From contig NZ_CP147917.1 of the NCBI RefSeq assembly GCF_039645965.1, forward strand, positions 1,240,001-1,304,000: a stretch of 64,000 nucleotides of DNA. Direction: 5' to 3'. The notes beneath the pieces were generated by a model. It was given only the letters and a program-made list of their open reading frames with translations. It did no database searches and had not been told where the DNA came from. Shown in pieces: positions 17,516 to 34,435 of the stretch. The position numbers were made by a program, and so were the translations under genes. Positions within the stretch are counted from its first letter, which is position 1; every line of letters begins with the position of its first letter. This DNA is from Sulfurimonas sp. HSL3-2. GTDB lineage: Bacteria; Campylobacterota; Campylobacteria; Campylobacterales; Sulfurimonadaceae.

Positions 17516-19188
17516 AACGTATTTATCTTATACCTGCTGAGTTCTTTGCCCTGTGAATCTATCACATGCACCGCACATGCCAGACAAGGGTCAAACGAGT
17601 GTAGCACTCTTAATACCTCGAGAGGTTTTGAGGTGTCTTCTATCTTTATCCCTACAAGCGCCTCTTCGTAAGCTCCTCTAAGACCATCATAGTTCTTTGG
17701 AGTAGCGTTCCAGGTCGTAGGAGCGATGACCGAGTAGTTCTCTATCTTCTCGCCTTTGATGTTTACAAAGTGCGACAACACACCGCGGGGTACTTCAAAG
17801 AAGGCCCTTCCCTTTGCGTCTTTTTCTAAGGCATTAAAATCATACTTTGTCCAGGTATCGGTGTCGTAATACTTGATGTTTTGAATCAGACGCGAGACAA
17901 GTTTAAAGATATACTCGCAGATGTAGTTTGTCTCGATGGCTCTCGCACAGTTTCTGCCCACCGTACTCGAGAGGTCAATGAGTTCCAGATCCGTATCTTT
18001 TAAAAACTCGTCTACAAAAGACCTTATCAGTTTATTGCCTTTTGAGTAACTCACCATGAGCCGAGCAAGAGGTCCTGTTTCCATCGTCTTTTTGTCATAT
18101 CTCGGTGCTTTTATCCAAGAGTATTTGTCATCATTTTTCGCGGTCTTGAGTGTTCCGTCTTCATTGAGGTCTGTGTAACACACCTCGTTGTCTTTGGCAT
18201 CTCCGCTGTACCATGCACGGTCGACCTCTTCGCTTATCTTGCTCTCATCGAACTCCTCTATCTTTGTAAAGTCGTGCCCGTAGATGATACCGCTGCTAAA
18301 GAGATTTTGTTCCCCTTCGAATTCATATCCGCCCACGCATAAAAAGTTCCCGTTTGCACGTCCCAGCCCTGCTTTGATCTCATCGCGGTAGGCCATGGCG
18401 ATAAGCTTCATATCAGGCAGATAAGCACGGGTGATAAACTCTTTTGCATCTTTTATGACAAACAGATAGTCGTTGAGTCTTTGAGGATTGAGCATATCTG
18501 CGACACTCGTAACTCCTCCTACGACTAAAGTCTGCGGATGCGGTGTCTTTGCACCGAATATCGCCACTGCTTTACTGATGCTTGCCTGAAATTCCAGTGC
18601 TTCAAGGTAATGAGAGATGAGGATCAGGTTTTGTTCAGGAGTAAGTCTATAATCCTTATGTCCCCAATACCCGTTTTTAAAAGGACCGAGTTTGCCTGCA
18701 TTTACAAAGTTCTGCAGTTTTACGAGGACCGCTTCATAGTGAGAATGGGAATTTCTAAAAGGATGGTCTGTATATTTATGCGCCTCTTTGGAGGTAAGTT
18801 TCGGGTCTGCATTTAAAGCACTTGTCACATCCACGAAATCCAGAGAGTGAAGATGGTAAAAATGCACTACATGATCCTGAATAAAAAGCGCCATTGACAT
18901 CAGGTCTCTTATGATCTGGGCATTTTTGGGAGGCTCTATCATGTAAGCATCTTCTACTGAAGTGATCGCCGCACGGAAATGTACATTTGTACATACACCG
19001 CAGATCCTGCCTGCCATAAGTCCCGCATCACGAGGGTCTCTGCCTTTTAAGATGATCTCTATGCCGCGAAAAAGCTGTCCGCTTACATAGGCTTCCTGCA
19101 CGATCCCGTTATCATCGACTTCGACTTCGGCTCTTAGGTGTCCTTCTATCCTTGTTATCGGGTCTATAACGATCTTTTTAGTGCTCAT
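17512..19188 (-). CDS. Cytoplasmic [NiFe] hydrogenase large subunit (HydB-like)
   Basis: This 558-residue large subunit begins STKKIVIDPITRIEGHLRAE and contains RICGVCTNVH and DPCLACAVHVID, the two nickel-binding cysteine pairs. After the final His a C-terminal tail (VIDSQ...INTL) remains, so processing by an endopeptidase is required. It is close to HydB at 31425-33203 in the same window. ATG 19188 is chosen over the GTG at 19191 because it overlaps the upstream stop as TGATG. Its small subunit is fused to a flavoprotein and has no functional export signal, so the enzyme should be cytoplasmic. Electron acceptor NAD(P) is inferred. Confidence 0.93.
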   Translation of the reverse strand: MSTKKIVIDPITRIEGHLRAEVEVDDNGIVQEAYVSGQLFRGIEIILKGRDPRDAGLMAGRICGVCTNVHFRAAITSVEDAYMIEPPKNAQIIRDLMSMALFIQDHVVHFYHLHSLDFVDVTSALNADPKLTSKEAHKYTDHPFRNSHSHYEAVLVKLQNFVNAGKLGPFKNGYWGHKDYRLTPEQNLILISHYLEALEFQASISKAVAIFGAKTPHPQTLVVGGVTSVADMLNPQRLNDYLFVIKDAKEFITRAYLPDMKLIAMAYRDEIKAGLGRANGNFLCVGGYEFEGEQNLFSSGIIYGHDFTKIEEFDESKISEEVDRAWYSGDAKDNEVCYTDLNEDGTLKTAKNDDKYSWIKAPRYDKKTMETGPLARLMVSYSKGNKLIRSFVDEFLKDTDLELIDLSSTVGRNCARAIETNYICEYIFKLVSRLIQNIKYYDTDTWTKYDFNALEKDAKGRAFFEVPRGVLSHFVNIKGEKIENYSVIAPTTWNATPKNYDGLRGAYEEALVGIKIEDTSKPLEVLRVLHSFDPCLACAVHVIDSQGKELSRYKINTL

Positions 19189-21605
19189 CACTTCTCTTCC
19201 TCAACATATTTTCTCTCATTTGCGAACTTATCAAAAAAGCCCTTCTCCGTACATCCCATACAACCGTGTCCCGCTTGAACAGGCCAGCTTGTCCCGCCGT
19301 TGAACTTCATCGTCGGACAGTTGACGTTTGCATAAGGCCCTTTACATCCCATCTCAAAAAGACACCATCCTTTTTTCGCACCCACGTCGCCCCACTCTTT
19401 GACAAACTCGCCGAGCTCATAGTGTCCGCGTCTTTCACAGTTGTCATGTACACGCCCCTCATATGCCCACAGAGGTCGGTTAAACTGATCAAGTGCCGGC
19501 AGTTCTTCAAACATGATGTATGAAAGCAGTGTCCCCACTATATTTATAGGGTTTGTCGGACATCCCGATATATTAATGACATCGTCACGTCCGAGAGCAT
19601 CCGCTACTCCCACAGCTCCCGTCGGATTTGGAGCGGCTGCGACAACTCCGCCGTCAAATGCACAGCTTCCCACCGCCATCACAAGTGCCGCGTCTTTTGC
19701 ACACTTTTTCAAAAGCTCAAGCCCAGTCTCGCCTTTTGGCCCGATGCGAAGAAATTTGCCGTCCATCGCCAAAGGAACTGCGCCCTCGACGATAAGGACA
19801 TATTCTCCCTTCTGATTTTTGATAATATCTTCCAGTACCGTCTCGCTCTGGTCACCGCTGGCACTCATAAGCAGTTCATGATAATCAAGTGAAATATAAT
19901 CAAAGATAAGGTCTTCAATAGCAGGGTTTGTAGATTTTATAAACGCTTCGGAGTTCCCGCTGCAGTCTGCAAGTTCCAGCCAGATTATAGGCACTTTATT
20001 CAGTGTTTTTACACCCTCTTCTACGACCTCTTCAAAGCTTGGATGCAGCTGCATATCTGCCGTTACCATAGATACCCAGCTGTTTACCTCATGTTTTCCT
20101 ATATCTAAAGATGCCATAGCAGCTTCAAGGTTATCGGTTGTCAGATTGTTTCTCGGATGAAGAGTGTTAAACTTCTCGATACGCTTACGAGCCTCAGCAA
20201 CCTCTTTCTCTCTTTGTATATCTTCCGGGGTCTTTCTCGGCATATTCGGGTCAATGAGATGCTGAGATTCTTTAATGATATTTGAGACCATCATCTTACA
20301 TCTGCCGCAGACTCTTCCCGCTTGCGAAAACGGTGCCAGCTCTGAAAAAGATCCGATGCCGCTGCTCGTCACTATATCCACCAGGTCTTGATGATAGATA
20401 TGCTCACAGCTACAGATGAGTCTTCCTCTCTCGCCGATCAGTCTGTTTTGATAAAGATAGTTTATATCTACCTCATCGCCGTTATTTATAAGTTCCTCTA
20501 TGTATCCGACATCGACATTGGAGTTGATCCCTATAAACCTTGTCAGCTTGTCATCGTTTAAAAAGTACTCATCTATCCTATTGTCCTCTTTTGAGGCGAT
20601 CTGTACCTTTTCATAGCCGCAGCTGAACTTTGGCGAGTTGACATCTATAAGATCAAACTCACCCACCTTTAGCATATCTGTTGTAGCTTCGAGTTTAAAC
20701 TCTTTTGGTTCTTTGCCTAGAAGATGAGAGATAGCACAATCGGCTTGCAGGGTGCACTCTTTGACATGACCCGCGATAAAATGGATATCTTTTACCTCGG
20801 CACACTCTCCAACGGCATAGATATCTTCATCCATAGTCTGCATATAAAGGTTGGTCAGTATCCCTTTATTACACTCAAGGCTCTCTTTGAAGTTTGCGAT
20901 GTTGGGTCTTATACCGATACCAAAGACGAGAAACGGGTCTTTTATCTCAAATTTTTTAGTCTTGATAACTGTTATCTCGTTCTCTTCTATAGTCTTGTCA
21001 ACTATCTCGTCTTCGTAAGATATCCTTATCTTGCCGTCTCTTGTATAGCACTCTTCTATGATCTTAATTGAATCGCTCGAGAGTTCTTTGTTATAAAGAT
21101 GATTACCGCGGGAAAGAAGCGTTATACGATCTACACTCGGCATTTCGTTAAGCGTCTCTAAAAGTTCAAGTCCTATGGGACCGCTTCCGACCATCACGAC
21201 TTCACGGCCTGATACGCCTGCTTTGATGATCTCGCAATCTTTCGCACTTCTAAATACGGCTGCATTTTTTATGTTGTCTATATTAAAGAGTGTAACAGGA
21301 ATAGAACCTGTAGCGATTATCAGCTTGTCGTAACTAAACATAGAGTCGTCAGAGAACACTCTTTTAGCATCGGGGTCTATCTTGTTTATTCTTTGATTTA
21401 GTTCAAGTTTAACTGTAGGGTCAAGAGGAAGAGAGATCCCTCCGATATCTTCACTCTCATCGACAAGACGGCAGAGGTGTATTCTGTCGTAGGGAGGGTT
21501 TTTCTCATCACTTATGATCGAGACATCTAGGGATGAGTCTTGCTTTTTAAGATTGTTTGCCAAATATACCGCGGCTATACCGCCGCCGACGATTACCACT
21601 CTCAT
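19188..21605 (-). CDS. Fusion of NirB-like FAD/[2Fe-2S] oxidoreductase with [NiFe] hydrogenase small subunit
   Basis: This 805-residue protein has three parts. Residues 1 to about 390 are a pyridine nucleotide-disulfide oxidoreductase (MRVVIVGGGIAAVYLANNL; second dinucleotide site VVMVGSGPIGLELL) resembling the NirB N-terminus. Residues about 395-440 are a BFD-like [2Fe-2S] domain (CSC and CGRC). Residues about 540-805 are a hydrogenase small subunit (LADCSGNSEA, VGSCAF, SGCPTNPINI, HDNCERR, CKGPYANVNC, HGCMGC). The linker aligns with the Tat signal region of HydA but has Lys-His instead of Arg-Arg. ATG 21605 has AAAGG six bases upstream; TTG 21611 is rejected. It likely links H2 to NAD(P)H or ferredoxin in the cytoplasm (inference). 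Confidence 0.9.
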   Translation of the reverse strand: MRVVIVGGGIAAVYLANNLKKQDSSLDVSIISDEKNPPYDRIHLCRLVDESEDIGGISLPLDPTVKLELNQRINKIDPDAKRVFSDDSMFSYDKLIIATGSIPVTLFNIDNIKNAAVFRSAKDCEIIKAGVSGREVVMVGSGPIGLELLETLNEMPSVDRITLLSRGNHLYNKELSSDSIKIIEECYTRDGKIRISYEDEIVDKTIEENEITVIKTKKFEIKDPFLVFGIGIRPNIANFKESLECNKGILTNLYMQTMDEDIYAVGECAEVKDIHFIAGHVKECTLQADCAISHLLGKEPKEFKLEATTDMLKVGEFDLIDVNSPKFSCGYEKVQIASKEDNRIDEYFLNDDKLTRFIGINSNVDVGYIEELINNGDEVDINYLYQNRLIGERGRLICSCEHIYHQDLVDIVTSSGIGSFSELAPFSQAGRVCGRCKMMVSNIIKESQHLIDPNMPRKTPEDIQREKEVAEARKRIEKFNTLHPRNNLTTDNLEAAMASLDIGKHEVNSWVSMVTADMQLHPSFEEVVEEGVKTLNKVPIIWLELADCSGNSEAFIKSTNPAIEDLIFDYISLDYHELLMSASGDQSETVLEDIIKNQKGEYVLIVEGAVPLAMDGKFLRIGPKGETGLELLKKCAKDAALVMAVGSCAFDGGVVAAAPNPTGAVGVADALGRDDVINISGCPTNPINIVGTLLSYIMFEELPALDQFNRPLWAYEGRVHDNCERRGHYELGEFVKEWGDVGAKKGWCLFEMGCKGPYANVNCPTMKFNGGTSWPVQAGHGCMGCTEKGFFDKFANERKYVEEEK

Positions 21606-21645
21606 ACGCAACCTTTTATATAATAGACTTTCCTATAATCCGTCC

Positions 21646-24097: not shown

Positions 24098-24784
24098 ATG
24101 CAATGGTTAATCGAATGTATTTACTGCGATCATAAACTGTATCGACTAGGTGACGGCATGTTAAAATGCTCGGCATGTAAAAGAAAGTACAGTCCAAAAC
24201 GTATAAACAAGATCATGATGCTTATAGACTATTTTTGTGAAGACAAAAATGCACTTCAAACTTCAAAACAACTCCGACTTTCCTATGTATCAATCCATAA
24301 ATATTACGATATCTTCAGACTGCTTTGTGCAAATATCTGTGAGATCGAATATGAACTCTCAAGAGGAAGATCTTGTGAGTATGAAGAGTATTTCTACCTT
24401 GAACAGAGTAAAAGGAACGATAGACTAGCGGTCTTTGATGCGCATAACTTCCTTACATTCGATTATGAAAACCATATCTATACATTGGTAATGCCGACAC
24501 TTCAAAGATACAAGCAGCAGTTTATTGACGACAATCTTGAAAACGTATATAACAGCGAATTCAATAAGTTCAAACGCAAAAGCAGGATCATAAAAGTCTC
24601 TAAACATCTCAATAAAATCGTGAACTTTTGGGAGTATTTTGAGAAGTTTATACTAAACTACAAAGGGATATCGACCGAGAATTTTCCGCTTTATCTAAAA
24701 GAGGCGGAGTTTAAATTTAACCATACGCTTGAAGCACAAAAAATGCTTCTGCAAAAACACTATTTCGAGAGTCAATATGAATGA
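24098..24784 (+). CDS. Zinc-ribbon HTH protein resembling the N-terminus of IS1595-type transposases
   Basis: This 228-residue protein begins with a zinc ribbon (CIYCDHKL, then CSACKRKY; C-x2-C-x15-C-x2-C), followed by a helix-turn-helix-like segment (about residues 47-80, LRLSYVSIHKYYDIFR). This pattern is found at the N-terminus of ISXO2/IS1595-like transposases, but no DDE catalytic core, terminal inverted repeats or target duplications are seen. It overlaps the hydrogenase maturation protease by 8 bp, so it is maintained as part of a hydrogenase operon. A domesticated DNA-binding regulator is a reasonable guess; no experimental analogue is known to me. Confidence 0.65.
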   Translation: MQWLIECIYCDHKLYRLGDGMLKCSACKRKYSPKRINKIMMLIDYFCEDKNALQTSKQLRLSYVSIHKYYDIFRLLCANICEIEYELSRGRSCEYEEYFYLEQSKRNDRLAVFDAHNFLTFDYENHIYTLVMPTLQRYKQQFIDDNLENVYNSEFNKFKRKSRIIKVSKHLNKIVNFWEYFEKFILNYKGISTENFPLYLKEAEFKFNHTLEAQKMLLQKHYFESQYE

Positions 24785-25916: not shown

Positions 25917-26474
25917 CTAAAAACCGCGGCCGTGTTCAATACTCGGATTTGCAAAAGTATAAAGTATCTCTTCTATAGAGCAATATCTCTCTCTTTTTTC
26001 AGCACTGATACCCTTCTTTTTTAAGAGTTGAAAGATATTGTCCAAGAACTGTGGTAAAGCCTCTTTTACCGAGTTGCTAAGCCCTACTTCAACAGAGATG
26101 ATATCTTCGGGAGTGATACTGATTATTGTCGTCTCTGCCATATTTTCACTAAGAGAACATATCTGCAGCATCTCCGCTATCTCGACCTCGTTTGCCGTCT
26201 TTTTTATCAGAGAACCCTCAATAAACTCCTCACTCTTTTTAATAGTGATAGAACCGGCTTTCGTGCTGTCATCAGAAGATGTATTGACTATGATGACATG
26301 TTCAAACTCCTGAAGCAGAGGCATCAATTTGAACCCTAAGGTCCCGCCGTCCAGTATTGTGATATTTGGCATAAGATCATAGTTCTCTTTTATGTACTTT
26401 ACAGCGTATAGCCCTATACCCTCATCTTTAAAAAACGTGTTTCCGGAACCTATCAATGCTATTTTATCTTCCAT
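25917..26474 (-). CDS. hydD: Hydrogenase maturation protease-like protein with altered metal ligands (HydD position)
   Basis: This 185-residue protein aligns over its whole length with the protease at 24777-25304: IALIGSGNTFFKDEGIGLYA at the N-terminus and ITPEDIISVEVGLS later. The first ligand (Glu of KDEG) is kept, but the Asp position reads VIIVNTSS (Asn) and the His position reads KTANEVE (Asn). It sits downstream of hypF in the hydABC operon, where Wolinella and Helicobacter have hydD. ATG 26474 overlaps the hypF stop by 11 bp and has GGGTG upstream; the upstream ATG and start at 26534 are rejected. It may process HydB by a modified mechanism, or have lost nickel sensing. Confidence 0.78.
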   Translation of the reverse strand: MEDKIALIGSGNTFFKDEGIGLYAVKYIKENYDLMPNITILDGGTLGFKLMPLLQEFEHVIIVNTSSDDSTKAGSITIKKSEEFIEGSLIKKTANEVEIAEMLQICSLSENMAETTIISITPEDIISVEVGLSNSVKEALPQFLDNIFQLLKKKGISAEKRERYCSIEEILYTFANPSIEHGRGF

Positions 26475-28755
26475 TTTCACCCCATTGTCTATTGACTGCA
26501 TAATATGCCTGACCAAGCGCGATCGAACCGTCATTTACAGGCGTATCTTTTTGTATATAGTACCTGATTTTTCTTTTTTTGAACTCTTTGGCAAGCTTAT
26601 CGACAAGTACACGGTTTTGAAACACTCCTCCGCTAAGCACTACAGGGAGTAACGGATATCTGCCCGCTATATCTAAGATAATATCTACCACCGTTGAGAT
26701 GAACATTGATGAGATCGTCGCCGGATCTTTTACATGTAATATCTCTTTTACCATAGCACTTATATCTATACTGTCATCTACTATAGTGTAACTAAACTTT
26801 CTATTCAGATCTATTTCTTCCTCTACTATGCTCTCTAACAGTAGGCCGCTCTCACCTTCATATCCGAGTATTTGAGCTACTCCTGCAAGCGAAGCCACCG
26901 CGTCAAAAACTCTTCCCATAGAGGTCGTATAAGGGGAGTTAAGTCCCTTTTGCCACATCGTATGGAGCGATTTTATCTCATCGCTAGTAAAACTCTTTGT
27001 CGTCTCACTCTCTAATGAGAGTATCTCCTCGAGTGTAAAGCATTCAAACAGAAGTGACAGAGCAACACGTCTTGGTTCTTTGACCGCTTTTGCTCCGCCT
27101 AAAAGACGAAACGGTTTGAGATGATGCACTCTCTCATAATCATCTACGTCGGACAACAGCACTTCTCCACCCCAAAGAGCACCCCCTTCACCGTACCCTG
27201 TCCCGTCAAAACAAAAAGAGAGTACCTTCTCATCTAAATTATATTCTGCCATACAAGCCAGTGCATGTGCGTAATGATGCTGAACCTCTAAGAGTTCTAT
27301 ATTGTCACTCTCTTTTGTAAACTGTCTTGCCCATTTTGTCGTCTCATATTCGGGATGTCTGTCGCATACGATGATATCTGGTTCAAAGTCGTAAAATCTT
27401 TTAAACGTCTCAAGCGTCCTTGTAAAATACTCAAACGCTTCCAGAGAGTTCAGGTCTCCTATATGAGGTGAAAGTACTATATGTCCGTCAAACGCCAGTG
27501 CAATGGTGTTTTTCTGGTTTGCACCTACTGCCAATATCTTTTTACTGCTCTTTTTAGGAAGTACAATACTTTTTGGCGCATATCCGCGGGAAACTCTTAT
27601 AGACACTTTCTCATCCCCGTTTTGCATGATGACACTGTCATCGCATCCATTAACTATCTCTCTGTCATAGGTCAGTACCGCGTCGACCACATCGCCAAGT
27701 TTTGTGAATATATCCTTCTCATCGATGATAATAGGCTCATCACTTAAGTTTGCACTTGTGGCGACTATCGGTCTGTCTAACTCCTTTAACAAAAGAGTAT
27801 GAAGCGGAGTATACGGCAAGAACACTCCGACTCTTTGTATATTCGGAGCGACATAAACAGAGAGAGTAGAGTTTTTGTTTTTATCCACTACTACGATAGG
27901 ATGCTCTTTTGAGAGGATAAGTCCCTCCTCTTTACTGCCGATAAATGCCTCTTTTTTCAGTGCCTCAATATCTTTAAACATCACGGCTAACGGCTTACTC
28001 GGACGTTTTTTTCTCTCCCGCAGCGTCGATACCGCTTCATCACTTAAAGCGTCACATACCAGATGAAAGCCGCCAAGCCCTTTTATAGCCACTATCTTTT
28101 TCTCTTCTATCAGTTTACATGTAAGCCCAATGGCATCATTGTTTTTTACTATCTCTTTGCCGTTACGGTCAAGCAGATACAGAGTCGGCCCGCACTCCGG
28201 ACAGCTGATAGGCTGGGCATGATAGCGTCTGTCGTTTGGATCGTTATATTCTTTGGCACATGTTTTACACATTGTAAAGACGTTCATAGAGGTGTTCGGT
28301 CTGTCATAAGGGAGTGTCTTGATAATGGAGTATCTCGGTCCGCAGTCCGTACAGTTTATAAAAGGGTATGCATATCTGCGATCTGTCTTGTCATTCATCT
28401 GTGCTTTACATCTCGCACACAGCGCGACATCCGGTGAGACCATTGTAGTCGTGACTACACTTGCTTCTGAATGGTGTATCTGAAAACTTTTTTCACCTGT
28501 AGCGATGATATTATGACTCTCGAGGGTATCTATTCTTGCAAGCGGCGGCGGACTTTCTTGGAGTGTGTTTAAAAATAAAGTGAGGTTTTGTTCATCACCT
28601 TCTACTTCTATTACCACTCCCTCGGAGTTGTTTAGTACGTATCCGCCTAGGGCATGCTTGAGGGCTGACTGATAGACAAAAGGCCTGAAACCGACCCCTT
28701 GTACGATCCCCTTTACATTGACTCTTAATCGTTTAGAGGTAAACTCCACCGACAA
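26464..28755 (-). CDS. hypF: Carbamoyltransferase HypF
   Basis: This 763-residue protein makes the thiocarboxamide on HypE from carbamoyl phosphate. Domains in order: acylphosphatase (GIVQGVGFRPFVYQ, residues about 17-30), two zinc fingers (CARC/CTDCG and CKTC/CPECG, about 115-195), YrdC-like domain, and Kae1-like domain with the VQHHYAHA metal motif and a C-terminal VVLSGGVFQN. The start is TTG at 28755: AAGGAG lies seven bases upstream and no ATG is available. It overlaps the HypF-like gene by 23 bp. It must serve all three hydrogenases because hypABCDE at 1309-6754 has no hypF. Confidence 0.95.
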   Translation of the reverse strand: MSVEFTSKRLRVNVKGIVQGVGFRPFVYQSALKHALGGYVLNNSEGVVIEVEGDEQNLTLFLNTLQESPPPLARIDTLESHNIIATGEKSFQIHHSEASVVTTTMVSPDVALCARCKAQMNDKTDRRYAYPFINCTDCGPRYSIIKTLPYDRPNTSMNVFTMCKTCAKEYNDPNDRRYHAQPISCPECGPTLYLLDRNGKEIVKNNDAIGLTCKLIEEKKIVAIKGLGGFHLVCDALSDEAVSTLRERKKRPSKPLAVMFKDIEALKKEAFIGSKEEGLILSKEHPIVVVDKNKNSTLSVYVAPNIQRVGVFLPYTPLHTLLLKELDRPIVATSANLSDEPIIIDEKDIFTKLGDVVDAVLTYDREIVNGCDDSVIMQNGDEKVSIRVSRGYAPKSIVLPKKSSKKILAVGANQKNTIALAFDGHIVLSPHIGDLNSLEAFEYFTRTLETFKRFYDFEPDIIVCDRHPEYETTKWARQFTKESDNIELLEVQHHYAHALACMAEYNLDEKVLSFCFDGTGYGEGGALWGGEVLLSDVDDYERVHHLKPFRLLGGAKAVKEPRRVALSLLFECFTLEEILSLESETTKSFTSDEIKSLHTMWQKGLNSPYTTSMGRVFDAVASLAGVAQILGYEGESGLLLESIVEEEIDLNRKFSYTIVDDSIDISAMVKEILHVKDPATISSMFISTVVDIILDIAGRYPLLPVVLSGGVFQNRVLVDKLAKEFKKRKIRYYIQKDTPVNDGSIALGQAYYAVNRQWGENGR
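26730..26739. repeat. TTACATGTAA palindrome copy 2
   Basis: Inside hypF, near its C-terminal end, in the context TTTACATGTAAT. Confidence 0.85.
28115..28124. repeat. TTACATGTAA palindrome copy 3
   Basis: A second copy inside hypF, as TTTACATGTAAG on the plus strand. Confidence 0.85.
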
Positions 28756-30658
28756 CGGCGTTCTCCTTCCCTATCGGATAGTTGATATTCATAAAAGGCG
28801 GTGTGAGCTTCAAATTTCTCTGCATACGGCTAAATAGGGACTGATTTGCAAAATGACTGCCGCAAAGAACAATATTCTTTGCTTTGGTCTTTGTCTGTAT
28901 CTCTTTTATAAGCTCACTAAAATAATCTCCAAGAGATTCAAAGATAGAGTAGCTCAGCATTACGCTTCCAACACCGCCGAGCTGATAACTGACGATACTG
29001 GATAAAAATGCGGTATGGTCAAAACGGTTGTCTTTGACATGGGTATCTATCTGGATACCGCCTTTGCCTATAAATTTCAGCGCCTCTTTTGTAACGCCCC
29101 GCATACTTTCATCTTCAAGCCCGAGAATGATAGCAGTAGCTTCAAACAAGTCGACCTCACCTCGTTCTTGAAGCCCTTCGAGCTTTTTATAGAGATCCGG
29201 CATCTTCTCTTTTAAATTTTTTACCAGCCTGTCCGATCCTTCCCTAAGGGTCGTCATTCTCTCTAACAAGTCCATTGCATTAAAATCACGTGAGGGGACG
29301 ACTCTGATCACTTTTTTGCCGTCATAGTATAAAAATGAAGCTTCCTCATCAAAATATGTTCCCACACAGCTGCTGCCAAAAAGCTGATGTTCTGCGATAA
29401 CCGACATAAACGACGCTTCATCCTGATGCATCAGAGTCTGGTTTGAGTGCCAGTTCTCTTCATCATGACCTTCAAGAACCATTACCTTTGCGACTTTTGT
29501 CGATTCAAAATGCTCCATCTTGTCAAAAAGCATCATCTCATCGCTTCGAACACCGATAAGATGATGAGCGATACTCAACGTATCCGTGGCAGGAGCCAGC
29601 TTTGATGGAAAACTCACTCTCTCACCTGAAGCTATAAACTGGATATCTTTGTTAATAAACAGCCTCATATCCTCTTGGTGCGTCACTTCCAGATCATAAT
29701 CCATCAAGATATCTGCCTGCGTGTCTTTGTCGGCATCTTCATAGGATATATAATCCTGATTTAAAGTCTGCAGCTCTTTTGCAAGCAGGATACTAAATCC
29801 GTCATCGGGATATTTTACATCGACTGTATCACCGATCTCTTTTTTTAAGGTCTCCTCTTTTACGGCTACATGTAAGATAGGACGCTCGATGCTTAGAAGT
29901 GCATTGAACTCCTGTTCTATCAAAGAGAGATAATCCGTGATCTTTTTGGCATTGATCATCATCAGTATAGAGCCGCTGTTTACATGTTCCGGCTTATAAA
30001 AAAGTCTGTAACCCATTGTCGTCTTTACCAAAACTCGCTTATTGTCCATCAGGGCTTTTGCGGCGACTTCGAACATAGTCCTGAAACTTCCTGCATCGTT
30101 TGCATAGCGTTCATTGTTTTTGTTCATGAGACGAACAGCTACACCGCATTTATGACAGCTGTTTATATGATGGTTCTCTCTTATTCCGACGCTGTTTATT
30201 TCAGACTCGCAATCCTCACAAGGCTTGAAAAATCGAAATGACGTATTTTTGCGTTCATAAGGAAAATTGGTAAAAAAACCATACTGTCCGCCGCAATGGC
30301 TGCATGAGGTAAAAGGGTAGTAATATCTTCGCGAAGATGGATCAAAAAGCTCTTTTTGGCAAGAGGGACAAAGCCCGAGTCCAAGAGGATATTCTACGCT
30401 GTAAGAGGGCAGAGAATCTGGAATATCATCCGTATTATAATGATCACTGCCTGTTAAAAAACATGAGGCGGGAAGTCTTTTGGAGATAGACTCTATACAC
30501 TCTTGAAGATTTTTGTTTTGTGAGTCAAAAGCAAAAAGAAGTTTTCCTTTTTTGTTTGCGGCAATAGCATTGATCCCGAACTCTCTGATAATACTGATAA
30601 TATAATTTTTTATATAGGATTGAGAGGAGTTTGTTTGAAGTTCCAGCACGAATGCCAT
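28733..30658 (-). CDS. Degenerate HypF paralog in the hyd operon (possible HydE counterpart)
   Basis: This 641-residue protein aligns with HypF but lacks catalytic parts. Both zinc fingers are intact (CPSC/CSHCG and CEDC/CHKCG), and the C-terminus (IVLCGSHFANQSLFSRM) matches the Kae1-like domain. The N-terminus has no acylphosphatase GVGFRP motif, the YrdC substrate motifs are not visible, and the Kae1 HHYAH metal motif is absent. In Wolinella and Helicobacter a gene called hydE of unclear role lies at a similar operon position; whether this is its counterpart needs comparison. ATG 30658 has AAAAGG upstream; ATG 30673 lies inside the hairpin region and lacks a ribosome site. Confidence 0.75.
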   Translation of the reverse strand: MAFVLELQTNSSQSYIKNYIISIIREFGINAIAANKKGKLLFAFDSQNKNLQECIESISKRLPASCFLTGSDHYNTDDIPDSLPSYSVEYPLGLGLCPSCQKELFDPSSRRYYYPFTSCSHCGGQYGFFTNFPYERKNTSFRFFKPCEDCESEINSVGIRENHHINSCHKCGVAVRLMNKNNERYANDAGSFRTMFEVAAKALMDNKRVLVKTTMGYRLFYKPEHVNSGSILMMINAKKITDYLSLIEQEFNALLSIERPILHVAVKEETLKKEIGDTVDVKYPDDGFSILLAKELQTLNQDYISYEDADKDTQADILMDYDLEVTHQEDMRLFINKDIQFIASGERVSFPSKLAPATDTLSIAHHLIGVRSDEMMLFDKMEHFESTKVAKVMVLEGHDEENWHSNQTLMHQDEASFMSVIAEHQLFGSSCVGTYFDEEASFLYYDGKKVIRVVPSRDFNAMDLLERMTTLREGSDRLVKNLKEKMPDLYKKLEGLQERGEVDLFEATAIILGLEDESMRGVTKEALKFIGKGGIQIDTHVKDNRFDHTAFLSSIVSYQLGGVGSVMLSYSIFESLGDYFSELIKEIQTKTKAKNIVLCGSHFANQSLFSRMQRNLKLTPPFMNINYPIGKENAVVGGVYL

Positions 30659-30673
30659 TGATATCCTTTTCAT

Positions 30674-30712: not shown

Positions 30713-31414
30713 TTAATTTTCTTTAACGAACTTGCTTCCGCCAAAGACGATTGCGATATCACCCTCTTTCCAAAAGATCGTTCTCCATATCTGATAATAA
30801 ATATGGAATACGACCCAAGCGACAAGGATCCACATTGTATAATGATGAGATATTCTAACATCCATGATAGTACCGCCCGTTACAGGGATGGTCCAGTCCG
30901 TTGCCAGATGAAGAAGCCAAGGCCACCAGCCTCCGATAGAACTGATTCCAGATTCAAGTCCTGAGACATAAAGTTGAAGTCCCGTAAACAGCATCCAAAA
31001 CAGAAGCAGATGGAAAATAAGAAAATAAACTGCGTTAAAGCTGTCTGCATGAGCAGAATTGAACTTTTTACGTCTATTTAGAGTCACAAGATTAAGAACA
31101 ACCTCGATAAACTCTATAATATTCTTAAAGGACGGCAGAACCTTCTTGTACGCTTTTTCAAAACGGCTGCAAAAATAAAGATACGCGATCACTACCGATG
31201 TAACATCAAAGATGATCGCGACTATGAAGTGCCCCCATCTATTCCAAGCCATGACATACTTGTCAACGGCACCGTCTGCCATCAACGTCTGATAGTACGG
31301 ATGACCTATATATAATCCGGTAATAATCGCTACTAACATAGAGATCGCATTTGCCCAGTGGATAATGCGACCTGCGGTAGTCATACGTTTTACCTGTTTA
31401 TATTCAGAGCTCAT
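30713..31414 (-). CDS. hydC: NiFe hydrogenase cytochrome b subunit HydC
   Basis: This 233-residue protein has four to five membrane helices with candidate haem-b histidines in GRIIHWANAIS, LLHLATDW and RISHHYTMW. HydC anchors HydAB in the membrane and passes electrons to menaquinone. ATG 31414 has AAGGAG six bases upstream; a TTG at 31432 is rejected. It is 11 bp after the hydB stop and is followed by the hairpin at 30674-30697 before the HypF-like gene. Confidence 0.93.
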   Translation of the reverse strand: MSSEYKQVKRMTTAGRIIHWANAISMLVAIITGLYIGHPYYQTLMADGAVDKYVMAWNRWGHFIVAIIFDVTSVVIAYLYFCSRFEKAYKKVLPSFKNIIEFIEVVLNLVTLNRRKKFNSAHADSFNAVYFLIFHLLLFWMLFTGLQLYVSGLESGISSIGGWWPWLLHLATDWTIPVTGGTIMDVRISHHYTMWILVAWVVFHIYYQIWRTIFWKEGDIAIVFGGSKFVKEN

Positions 31415-31424
31415 AATAATCTCC

Positions 31425-33203
31425 TTAGACACTACATTGCGTATCTATTTTATAGACACCTAACTCTTTTCCTTTTGTATCGACTACGTGCACGGCACAT
31501 GCGATACAAGGATCAAAACTATGGATCGTGCGTATGATCTCAAGCGGCTGCTCAGGATCTGCGACTTTGATACCGATCAGACTCGCTTCATATGCACCGA
31601 GTCTTCCTTTATAATCACGCGGTGCCCCGTTCCATGTAGATGGGACTACGGCTTGATAGTTTGAGACTTTACCTTCATCGATACGTACCCAGTGTCCAAG
31701 TGAACCACGAGGTGCTTCTGCAAGCCCCATCCCTTTTGTCTTGACACTTACTTTGTTAAAGTCAAAATCAGTCCAAGTACTTAAGTCACCTGCGGCTACG
31801 TTTGCTGCCAGTTCATCAGCCCATTCAACAAGAGCATCAGCCATAATAGTCGTCTCTATCGCACGAGCTGCAGTTCTTCCGATCGTACTAAAGAGTACTG
31901 CAACAGGAAGATTTCCACGTTTTAAGAAATCCATCACATACTTCGTAATACGTTCATCTTTACGTGCTACACCCACAACCATACGAGCCAAAGGTCCGAC
32001 CTCTACACGTGTATCATTGTAGATAGGAGATTTTATCCAGCTGTATTTCTCATTAGTCTTAAGATATGCCACACCGTCTGAGCGTTTGTCAAGACCGGTA
32101 TAGTTCGGTATAGTCTGTCCGTCATACGGATGAAGCGGTTTCGCTCCCTCATACCAAGAGTGAGTGACATCTTCCGCGATCTTTGTCGGATCTACATCTT
32201 CGACTTTAGAGATATCCCCGCCGTAAACTATTCCGCTTGGAAACAGCAGAGCCGAGTTATAAAAACCTGTATCGTCCAGACGGAAGTCTCCGTAACTCAT
32301 ATAGTTAAGAAGTCCCCCTCCTGTTCCGCCTACGCCTTTACCTTCCATAAGTTCAGTAAACGTCGCTTTAGAGTCTGTAGCTTCATCCGCATACATAGTC
32401 CCTGCCATATAAACATCTGGAAGATAAGCTTGTTTTACAAACTTCGTACCGTCTGCTAAAAGCTGTTTAAACAGAGCTATACGTGCTGGATTTTCAATAT
32501 CCTGAACACAAGTGACACCGCCCACGACAATCGACTGTGGATGCGGGTTTTTACCGCCGAAGATCGCCTGCATCTTCGCTAGATCACGTTGAATATCGAG
32601 TGCTTTTAAATAGTGTGCGACACCTATGAGGTTTTGTTCAGGAGTAAGTTTATAGTGCTTATTACCCCAGTATCCGTTACCGAATATTCCAAGACGTCCC
32701 TGCTTTACAAACTTCGCTACACGCTCTTGGACCTCTTTAAACTCGCCTTCGCCGTCAGTGTAAGGAGCAACGCCTGCTACTGTAGCCCATTTTCTTGCTT
32801 CAGCAGCGGTTTTTGCAGGATCAGCTGAAAGAGCTGAAACGACATCGACAAAATCAAGTGCATGCAGATGATAAAAATGTACCAAATGGTCATGGACATA
32901 GAGTGAACCTTGGATCAGGTTACGGACAATACGTGCATTTTTAGGTATAGTGATGTCAAATGCATCCTCTACAGCTTCTATAGATCTTTGATAATGTGTT
33001 CCCGTACAGACACCACAGATACGCATAGCAAGTAAACCGCAATCACGAGGATCTCTGCCTTGTAAGATTGTTTCAATCCCGCGGAACATCGTTGAAGCAC
33101 TATACGCATCCACTATCGTATTGTTCTCATCTATAACAGCTTCTATTCTTAAATGACCCTCTATACGTGTAATCGGATCGACTACAATATGACGCTTACT
33201 CAT
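31425..33203 (-). CDS. hydB: Quinone-reactive [NiFe] hydrogenase large subunit HydB
   Basis: This 592-residue group 1-type large subunit has RICGVCTGTH (L1) and DPCIACAVHVVD (L2), the nickel ligands. The tail after the final His (VVDTKGKELGVYKIDTQCSV) should be removed by a protease, most likely the HydD-like protein of this operon. It closely resembles the cytoplasmic large subunit at 17512-19188, the clearest paralog pair in the window. It overlaps hydA by 1 bp and is exported with HydA through the Tat signal of HydA. Confidence 0.96.
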   Translation of the reverse strand: MSKRHIVVDPITRIEGHLRIEAVIDENNTIVDAYSASTMFRGIETILQGRDPRDCGLLAMRICGVCTGTHYQRSIEAVEDAFDITIPKNARIVRNLIQGSLYVHDHLVHFYHLHALDFVDVVSALSADPAKTAAEARKWATVAGVAPYTDGEGEFKEVQERVAKFVKQGRLGIFGNGYWGNKHYKLTPEQNLIGVAHYLKALDIQRDLAKMQAIFGGKNPHPQSIVVGGVTCVQDIENPARIALFKQLLADGTKFVKQAYLPDVYMAGTMYADEATDSKATFTELMEGKGVGGTGGGLLNYMSYGDFRLDDTGFYNSALLFPSGIVYGGDISKVEDVDPTKIAEDVTHSWYEGAKPLHPYDGQTIPNYTGLDKRSDGVAYLKTNEKYSWIKSPIYNDTRVEVGPLARMVVGVARKDERITKYVMDFLKRGNLPVAVLFSTIGRTAARAIETTIMADALVEWADELAANVAAGDLSTWTDFDFNKVSVKTKGMGLAEAPRGSLGHWVRIDEGKVSNYQAVVPSTWNGAPRDYKGRLGAYEASLIGIKVADPEQPLEIIRTIHSFDPCIACAVHVVDTKGKELGVYKIDTQCSV

Positions 33204-34435
33204 TATGCTTCTCCTCCATCATCTTTTTTTCCTGCAAGTGCACTGGCAACAGCATGAATACCTATACCGATACCGGCTGCTGTAAGTAGTCCAAGACCAA
33301 ATTCATCTACAGACTTTTCAACTCCGCCTGCCGGTGCTTTTATCTTCGCATCTGCCATAGGACGCTCATATGCGTATTTATCCCAGAAATCAGGTTCAGA
33401 ACAGCCTATACATCCGCGTCCGACACCGATCGGCCAGTTCACAGCCTCGTTATAACGCACGATTGAACAGTTATTGAACGTCATTGGGCCTTTACATCCC
33501 ATTTTATAAAGACAGAAGTTGTTTTGAGCACCTTTATCGCCCCACTCTTCGACATATTCACCGGCATCAAAGTGTGCACGGCGTTCACAGTTGTCATGGA
33601 TACGGTAACCAAATGCGAATTTTGGACGAAGAAGAGAATCTAATTCAGGTACCTGTCCTGTCAAAATATAGTGGATGATCACACCCACCATGTTTGCAGG
33701 ATTCGCCGGACATGCCGGGATATTGATGATCGGTTTGCCTTTTACGACATCCATAACACCAACAGCACCCGTTGGGTTTGGAGCTGCAGCAGGGATACCG
33801 CCGTATGTAGCACAAGAACCTACAGCTATGACTGCTGCAGCATCTCTGGAAAGACGCATCAAGTGATCATAAAATGTCTCGGCACCCGCACCGATAGTTC
33901 CATATTGACCGTTCATGCCCATCGGGACAGATCCCTCGACAAAAAGAAGGTATTTTCCTCTAAAGGTTTTAATAGCGTCTTCCAGCTGTTTTTCTGCCTG
34001 AAAGCCCGCCGCAGCTTGAAGTGTCTCATGAAACTCTAATGATATGATATCAAGGACGATCTCATCTATCTTTGGTCCGTCTGAACGTAAAAGTGCTTCA
34101 GAATTCCCTGCACAGTCTTGCAGTTCTATCCAGATAACGGGAGCACGGTTCATTAGTTCAGCCGCCTGAGCGACAAGAGGAGAAAACATTGGAGGAAGCA
34201 TCAGCATCGCTGTAGTAGCACTGACCCATTTCATAAAGTCACGTCTATCGACACCGTTTTCACTTAATAATTCACTGAAGTCCAACCTATTGGCCGGCTG
34301 TGTGGAACGCAGATCATTTAATCTTGCTTGACATCTCTCGAAGAGATCGTTGTAATAAGACTCACCTTTGTTTGTCTCGACTCGAGCGCTTTTTGAGGTA
34401 AATAACTTCTTCACCCCTTCGATTCTATCTGGCAT
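33203..34435 (-). CDS. hydA: Quinone-reactive [NiFe] hydrogenase small subunit HydA, Tat-exported
   Basis: This 410-residue small subunit has a long N-terminal region with a Tat motif (DRRDFMKWVS, about residues 61-70) and a hydrophobic core ending near AQAAE. Cluster ligands are visible: LQDCAGNSEA, VGSCATYGG, PACPANPANM, HDNCERR, CKGPMTFNNC and GRGCIGC. The first motif has CxGN in place of the usual CxGC, so one proximal ligand is not cysteine; I recall the same in Helicobacter HydA. A C-terminal hydrophobic helix (FGLGLLTAAGIGIGIHAVAS) anchors the protein. It is the first gene of the hydABC-hypF-hydD operon. Confidence 0.96.
   Translation of the reverse strand: MPDRIEGVKKLFTSKSARVETNKGESYYNDLFERCQARLNDLRSTQPANRLDFSELLSENGVDRRDFMKWVSATTAMLMLPPMFSPLVAQAAELMNRAPVIWIELQDCAGNSEALLRSDGPKIDEIVLDIISLEFHETLQAAAGFQAEKQLEDAIKTFRGKYLLFVEGSVPMGMNGQYGTIGAGAETFYDHLMRLSRDAAAVIAVGSCATYGGIPAAAPNPTGAVGVMDVVKGKPIINIPACPANPANMVGVIIHYILTGQVPELDSLLRPKFAFGYRIHDNCERRAHFDAGEYVEEWGDKGAQNNFCLYKMGCKGPMTFNNCSIVRYNEAVNWPIGVGRGCIGCSEPDFWDKYAYERPMADAKIKAPAGGVEKSVDEFGLGLLTAAGIGIGIHAVASALAGKKDDGGEA

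Follow-up and report, generated by a model that had tools for sequence, protein, structure and literature searches.

The hyd locus and the hydE gene

We analysed a window of 64,000 nucleotides from Sulfurimonas sp. HSL3-2 (NZ_CP147917.1, positions 1,240,001 to 1,304,000) that carries a NiFe hydrogenase operon, and in it a gene, hydE, whose product is a pseudoenzyme derived from the maturation protein HypF. All coordinates are positions in this window (Table 1). The genes are ordered hydA, hydB, hydC, hydE, hypF and a hydD-like protease gene. The longest open reading frame (ORF) of hydE spans 28733..30673 on the minus strand and encodes 646 amino acids (aa) from its first ATG, and the start conserved among relatives is M6, at 30658, which gives 641 aa. 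Residue numbers and CxxC positions follow the 646-aa numbering. An earlier preliminary description of this DNA ended the gene at 30658, which is better than the end of the longest ORF since M6 is the start conserved in relatives. It also gave a 23-bp overlap between hydE and hypF; the same overlap was obtained with the longest hypF ORF, which begins at a TTG codon, and its extent depends on the hypF start chosen. The neighbouring hypF is considered a working enzyme because of its TIGR00143 score. Scans for repeats, RNA families and promoters around hydE gave nothing informative.

Table 1. Features of the hyd locus, in window coordinates
Feature	Position	Strand	Basis
hydE, HypF-derived pseudoenzyme, 641 aa from the conserved start	28733..30658	-	homology, predicted fold, residue conservation
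Acylphosphatase-like (ferredoxin-fold) N-terminal domain of hydE, without the GVGFRP loop	30428..30658	-	
Two HypF-type zinc fingers of hydE, four CxxC pairs (C102/105, 124/127, 152/155, 173/176)	30146..30370	-	
YrdC/Sua5-like domain of hydE, without KxxRPxKP and TSAN; invariant E263-x-P265 present	29603..30127	-	residues 183-356 match Sua5/YrdC
Kae1-like domain of hydE (residues 363-646), without HHxxH, DGTG and GGxxQN; invariant N486, D543, S562, G605	28736..29587	-	
hypF, complete carbamoyltransferase	26464..28755	-	TIGR00143, 819.8 bits
hydD-like hydrogenase maturation protease (HycI family)	25917..26534	-	
hydC, cytochrome b subunit	30713..31432	-	annotation of homologue
hydB, NiFe hydrogenase large subunit	31425..33203	-	
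hydA, small subunit with Tat motif (RRDFM)	33203..34435	-	sequence; relatives

In relatives across the order, hydE directly follows hydABC or hydABCD. The order hydABCDE is found in most other genomes, against hydABC-hydE-hypF-hydD in the window. HydE of Wolinella succinogenes DSM 1740 (546 aa) occupies the same operon slot and aligned with the window HydE family at E 1.2e-42 (hhalign). Judged by homology and operon position, the window gene is the HydE of hydABCDE, as in Wolinella, in agreement with the earlier suggestion of a counterpart of Helicobacter and Wolinella HydE. The radical SAM protein HydE of [FeFe] hydrogenases is unrelated and has the name alone in common, which invites mis-annotation. 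One survey listed HydE in eleven genomes and HydE, HydF and HydG together in three only (PMC4794192), a count that possibly mixes the radical SAM and NiFe proteins. There is no HydE model in Pfam or NCBIfam, and long forms of the protein are annotated as 'hypothetical protein' in public records.

HypF ancestry and loss of the catalytic sites

Searched against Pfam and NCBIfam, the window HydE matched HypF families only. The zf-HYPF domain was found at E 2.8e-17, HypF_C_2 at 25.3 bits, slightly below the protein-level cut-off of 27 (27.8 bits for the same frame in a whole-genome search), and the HypF equivalog TIGR00143 at 101.7 bits, below its curated cut-off of 466, so the protein is not HypF by that test. 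When 30 HydE were aligned with 22 HypF by hhalign, an E value of 5.2e-27 was obtained across 574 columns, and a larger HydE set headed by a Helicobacter-type sequence gave 1.3e-27. Thirteen diverged HydE with at most a partial finger region aligned with HypF at E 2e-22 and matched the HypF structure 3VTH in three separate stretches, namely the N-terminal domain, the fingers with YrdC, and the Kae1 lobe. The whole of the window HydE, and not its fingers alone, is derived from HypF. The preliminary description had called the gene a degenerate HypF paralog with zinc fingers and a Kae1-like C-terminus, and had named likeness to HypF outside the fingers as the point to check; the finger match, the full-length profile alignments, including that of sequences lacking a complete finger set, and the fold all bear it out.

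The AlphaFold model of the window HydE (mean pLDDT 89.5, pTM 0.89) is predicted to keep the four-domain HypF fold, and both zinc fingers, with four CxxC pairs, are present. Its top Foldseek matches in PDB were all HypF (E 7e-32 to 2e-22), and VIA-align superposed it on a solved HypF with Z 29.0 over 605 residues at a root-mean-square deviation of 4.6. The Kae1-like domain also resembled TsaD/Kae1 in the structure comparison. The training set of AlphaFold consisted of solved structures, HypF probably among them, which makes the profile comparisons of sequences the more independent line of evidence. HydE shares with HypF (TIGR00143; PDB 3VTI, 3VTH, 4G9I, 3TSP) the order of acylphosphatase-like, zinc-finger, YrdC-like and Kae1-like domains and the fold over its whole length, but is about 100 residues shorter and has lost all three catalytic sites. 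In a FastTree tree the branch leading to HydE was very long and joined close to the base of the Campylobacterota HypF, and it does not date the duplication.

Among 134 near-invariant HypF positions, 32 were retained in half or more of the HydE, and most of these are cysteines of the fingers, glycines or prolines. At nearly all active-site positions, by comparison, the HypF residue was retained by 0 to 3 of 30 HydE. The acylphosphatase loop is replaced in the window HydE, which has the Asn of that site but not the Arg; across the 30 proteins the Asn was found in three and the Arg in two. In the YrdC domain, nearly all HydE had the segments with KxxRPxKP and TSAN either deleted or replaced. In the Kae1 domain the His residues of HHxxH were kept by 0 to 1 of 30, the GTG of DGTG by 0 to 3, the second Gly of GGxxQN by none and its Gln by one. 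HydE has lost the residues of all three HypF catalytic sites; the absence of GVGFRP and HHYAH reported earlier was confirmed, and the YrdC motifs are gone as well.

Seven columns were invariant among 43 diverse HydE (L259, E263, P265, N486, D543, S562 and G605 in window numbering), none of them Cys or His. They could be accounted for if HydE were an enzyme whose active site arose anew on the HypF scaffold, as a pocket could be formed or lined by E263, N486, D543, S562 and G605. We regard such an enzyme as improbable, since neither a conserved cluster of Cys/His nor a recognisable catalytic motif was found and HydE drift to 13-30% identity with whole domains shrinking.

The closest usable hydE pairs gave ratios of nonsynonymous to synonymous substitution (dN/dS) near 0.04 (dN 0.019/dS 0.49) and 0.10 (dN 0.100/dS 0.96), more distant pairs being saturated, and the gene was intact in nearly all relatives. 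These ratios ruled out a pseudogene. That HydE is a decaying, functionless hypF copy would fit the loss of every HypF active site, but is scarcely credible in view of the same ratios, the intact genes and the requirement of the Helicobacter pylori hydrogenase for hydE, as related in PMC7695850.

Across Campylobacterota the family ran from the window form of about 640 aa with four CxxC pairs, through forms with two, to finger-less forms of 470-560 aa with none. Wolinella/Helicobacter-type HydE share operon and profile family with the window protein, but are 508-602 aa long and mostly finger-less, whereas the window form has both fingers. Taken alone, Wolinella HydE reached only sub-threshold values against HypF (14.6 bits for TIGR00143; hhalign probability 25%), and a search of PDB sequences with it returned no HypF match. 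A finger-less Helicobacter-type HydE of 512 aa (L183) had zero Pfam or NCBIfam matches; the best match of its model was HypF, with Z 16.7 over 463 residues, followed by Kae1 proteins at 13. The window HydE is among the least eroded forms and exposes a HypF ancestry that is nearly invisible in the short ones.

Distribution and co-inheritance with HydABC

The distribution of HydE was surveyed in 180 Campylobacterales genomes. Counts of HydE and HydABC were read from printed tables rather than scripted, and exclude weak HypF cross-matches (E > 1e-12) and HupSL-type large subunits. HydE was present in about 147 genomes and the HydABC large subunit in about 146. Three discordant genomes were accounted for by contig ends or operon decay: HydB is interrupted by a contig end in G138, HydE sits on a 3.5-kb contig in G089, and G115 retains HydD and HydE remnants after operon loss. 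HydE was absent from HypF-bearing genomes with only HupSL-type (G018, G035, G123, G135) or only distant hydrogenases (G042, G044, G047). In a phylum sample of high-quality genomes, 190 of 200 carried it. Genomes with two HydABC usually had two HydE and one HypF (G152, G195, G184, G092, G171, G046), and some extra Tat-type HydAB pairs had no linked HydE. A tblastn search of plasmids for HydE outside the phylum gave HydE-length matches in Sulfurimonas and Sulfurovum only; the others listed were partial and nearly all annotated HypF.

Several loci departed from the common pattern. In G004 a second, near-identical hyd operon (L057, 6064-8016) has hydE broken into three ORFs with hydAB, hypF and hydD intact, and one HydE may serve both operons. 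In the draft genome G028 (99% complete; L050/L206) hydABCDE is present and HypF was not detected, through either a binning gap or a real loss. Hydrogenase and maturation modules are carried by plasmids in Sulfurimonas paralvinellae and Sulfurovum mangrovi (L177, L178); the annotation of the Sulfurovum plasmid splits HypF into an acylphosphatase gene and a HypF gene.

Patristic distances from 33 operons correlated at 0.73 between HydE and HydB, 0.49 between HydE and HypF and 0.17 between HypF and HydB. HydE, HydB, HydC and HydD of type II were each monophyletic, and HypF mixed the types. The phylogeny of HydE tracks HydB more than HypF.

These results bear on the possibility that HydE is a partner of HypF, forming a hetero-oligomer with HypF or HypE and regulating cyanide-ligand synthesis as TsaB supports TsaD. 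The two genes adjoin and overlap, the fold is common to both, and the Kae1-like domain of HydE has its likeness to TsaD/Kae1 as well. TsaB is a degenerate Kae1-fold paralog and the partner of TsaD, needed for a carbamoyl-transfer pathway; unlike TsaB, HydE has four HypF domains and follows a client enzyme rather than the active paralog. A partnership with HypF is unlikely, as HypF is retained without HydE where only other NiFe hydrogenases occur, the HydE phylogeny is nearer HydB, and hypF is unlinked to hydE in several genomes (e.g. G037, G178). The general HypF partner considered in the preliminary description is disfavoured on the same ground, that HypF-bearing genomes without HydABC have no HydE, and its alternative of a hydrogenase-specific scaffold fits the distribution with HydABC. 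Its further ideas, a decoy role and the binding of HypE or a carbamoyl intermediate, are conjectural.

Proposed role in hydrogenase maturation

The function of HydE was called not fully understood or unknown in papers of 2017 and 2020. Loss of hydE in H. pylori abolished hydrogenase activity, was not rescued by nickel and left urease normal, according to the passage of PMC7695850 that cites Benoit 2004. A full-length HypF copy with all active sites lost suggests a dedicated assembly scaffold. On balance, we favour the reading that HydE is a HypF-derived pseudoenzyme, most likely serving as a maturation scaffold or adaptor dedicated to HydABC, the hydrogenase exported by twin-arginine translocation (Tat). 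Every NiFe hydrogenase depends on HypF for the precursor of its cyanide ligands and HydE follows one enzyme, so the HydE step is likeliest enzyme-specific.

The analysis shows homology to HypF, the fold, the dead sites, purifying selection on hydE and its strict coupling to HydABC, with copy number and phylogeny going with HydABC and not with HypF; the binding partners and the step of action are inferred. An ancient duplication of HypF would have given rise to HydE, which retained the four-domain fold and lost the residues of all three catalytic sites. Its HypF-derived surfaces would contact the Hyp machinery, either HypE or the HypC-HypD-HypE assembly, a newer surface would bind the precursor of the large subunit HydB, and the Fe(CN)2CO group would thereby be delivered to HydB prior to clipping by HydD. 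A bolder version, which we put forward tentatively, is that HydE represents a new class of NiFe-hydrogenase maturation factor, in which a remodelled Kae1 pocket (invariant N486, D543, S562, G605) takes a ligand or Fe(CN)2CO from the Hyp machinery and hands it to one specific large subunit.

Several points weigh against a scaffold for cofactor delivery. The contacts of HydE with HypE, HypCD and HydB are themselves deduced. Cytosolic hydrogenases lack HydE although they also need Fe(CN)2CO. Operon linkage alone can produce tree congruence, and because it contributes, the correlations support a co-inherited module, not contact. A few HydAB operons (G176 C79, G046 C18) have no linked HydE, although those genomes carry one elsewhere. 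Since HydABC is the only Tat-exported enzyme, a role tied to export accounts for the distribution just as well.

HydE could accordingly be an assembly or export chaperone. It would keep HydA, alone or paired with HydB, in the cytoplasm while the cofactor is being loaded and, once loading is complete, hand it over to the Tat system or the membrane anchor. It was found only alongside the Tat-bearing hydrogenase, no HyaE/HybE-like chaperone genes were seen in hyd operons by inspection, and a table in PMC7695850 describes HydE as localising the hydrogenase to the membrane. The HypF fold, however, gives no hint of Tat-signal binding, and Tat-type HydAB pairs at three loci (L120, L126, L131) have no linked HydC or HydE, those genomes having HydE elsewhere. 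We consider such a chaperone possible, if somewhat doubtful.

The proposed scaffold has parallels in other maturation systems. HoxV/HupK is an inactive homologue of the large subunit and a proposed Fe(CN)2CO scaffold (PMC12134894). By analogy only, it resembles HydE as an inactive paralog dedicated to one membrane hydrogenase, but HydE comes from HypF, and no HydE in the locus maps matched HydB. The HypC/HypA paralogs (HybG, HoxL/HupF, HybF) confer hydrogenase specificity, as proposed for HydE, yet they retain the activity of their family, whereas HydE is a pseudoenzyme of another Hyp protein (PMC12134894 for the paralogs). That review of NiFe maturation, published in 2025, makes no mention of HydE. 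The name hydE was known already; its nature as a HypF-derived pseudoenzyme was not found in the literature searched, subscription literature aside. Once HydE is recognised as a dead HypF, an orphan requirement becomes a question open to experiment, namely whether HydE binds HypE, HypCD or pre-HydB. If the scaffold role is true, HydE would join HoxV/HupK and the HypC/HypA paralogs as a further type of paralog that gives each hydrogenase its own assembly line, and Campylobacterota membrane hydrogenases made in other hosts may need hydE.

Other genes were noted near hyd loci. At 19188-21611 the window encodes a protein of 807 aa in which an FAD/NAD oxidoreductase and a BFD [2Fe-2S] domain are fused with a hydrogenase small subunit; this fusion is conserved in many relatives and adjoins a cytosolic-type large subunit. 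The gene at 24098-24784 is kept beside hyd loci and is possibly a domesticated DNA-binding regulator; its equivalent at that place in S. paralvinellae is annotated 'transposase'. In L177 (1297-4052) and upstream of hydA in many loci (e.g. L121, L136) lie a TetR regulator and a small hydrogenase-like pair, which in relatives precedes hydABC, measures about 296 and 430 aa and has 22-32% identity to HydA/HydB. Together they are perhaps an H2 sensor.

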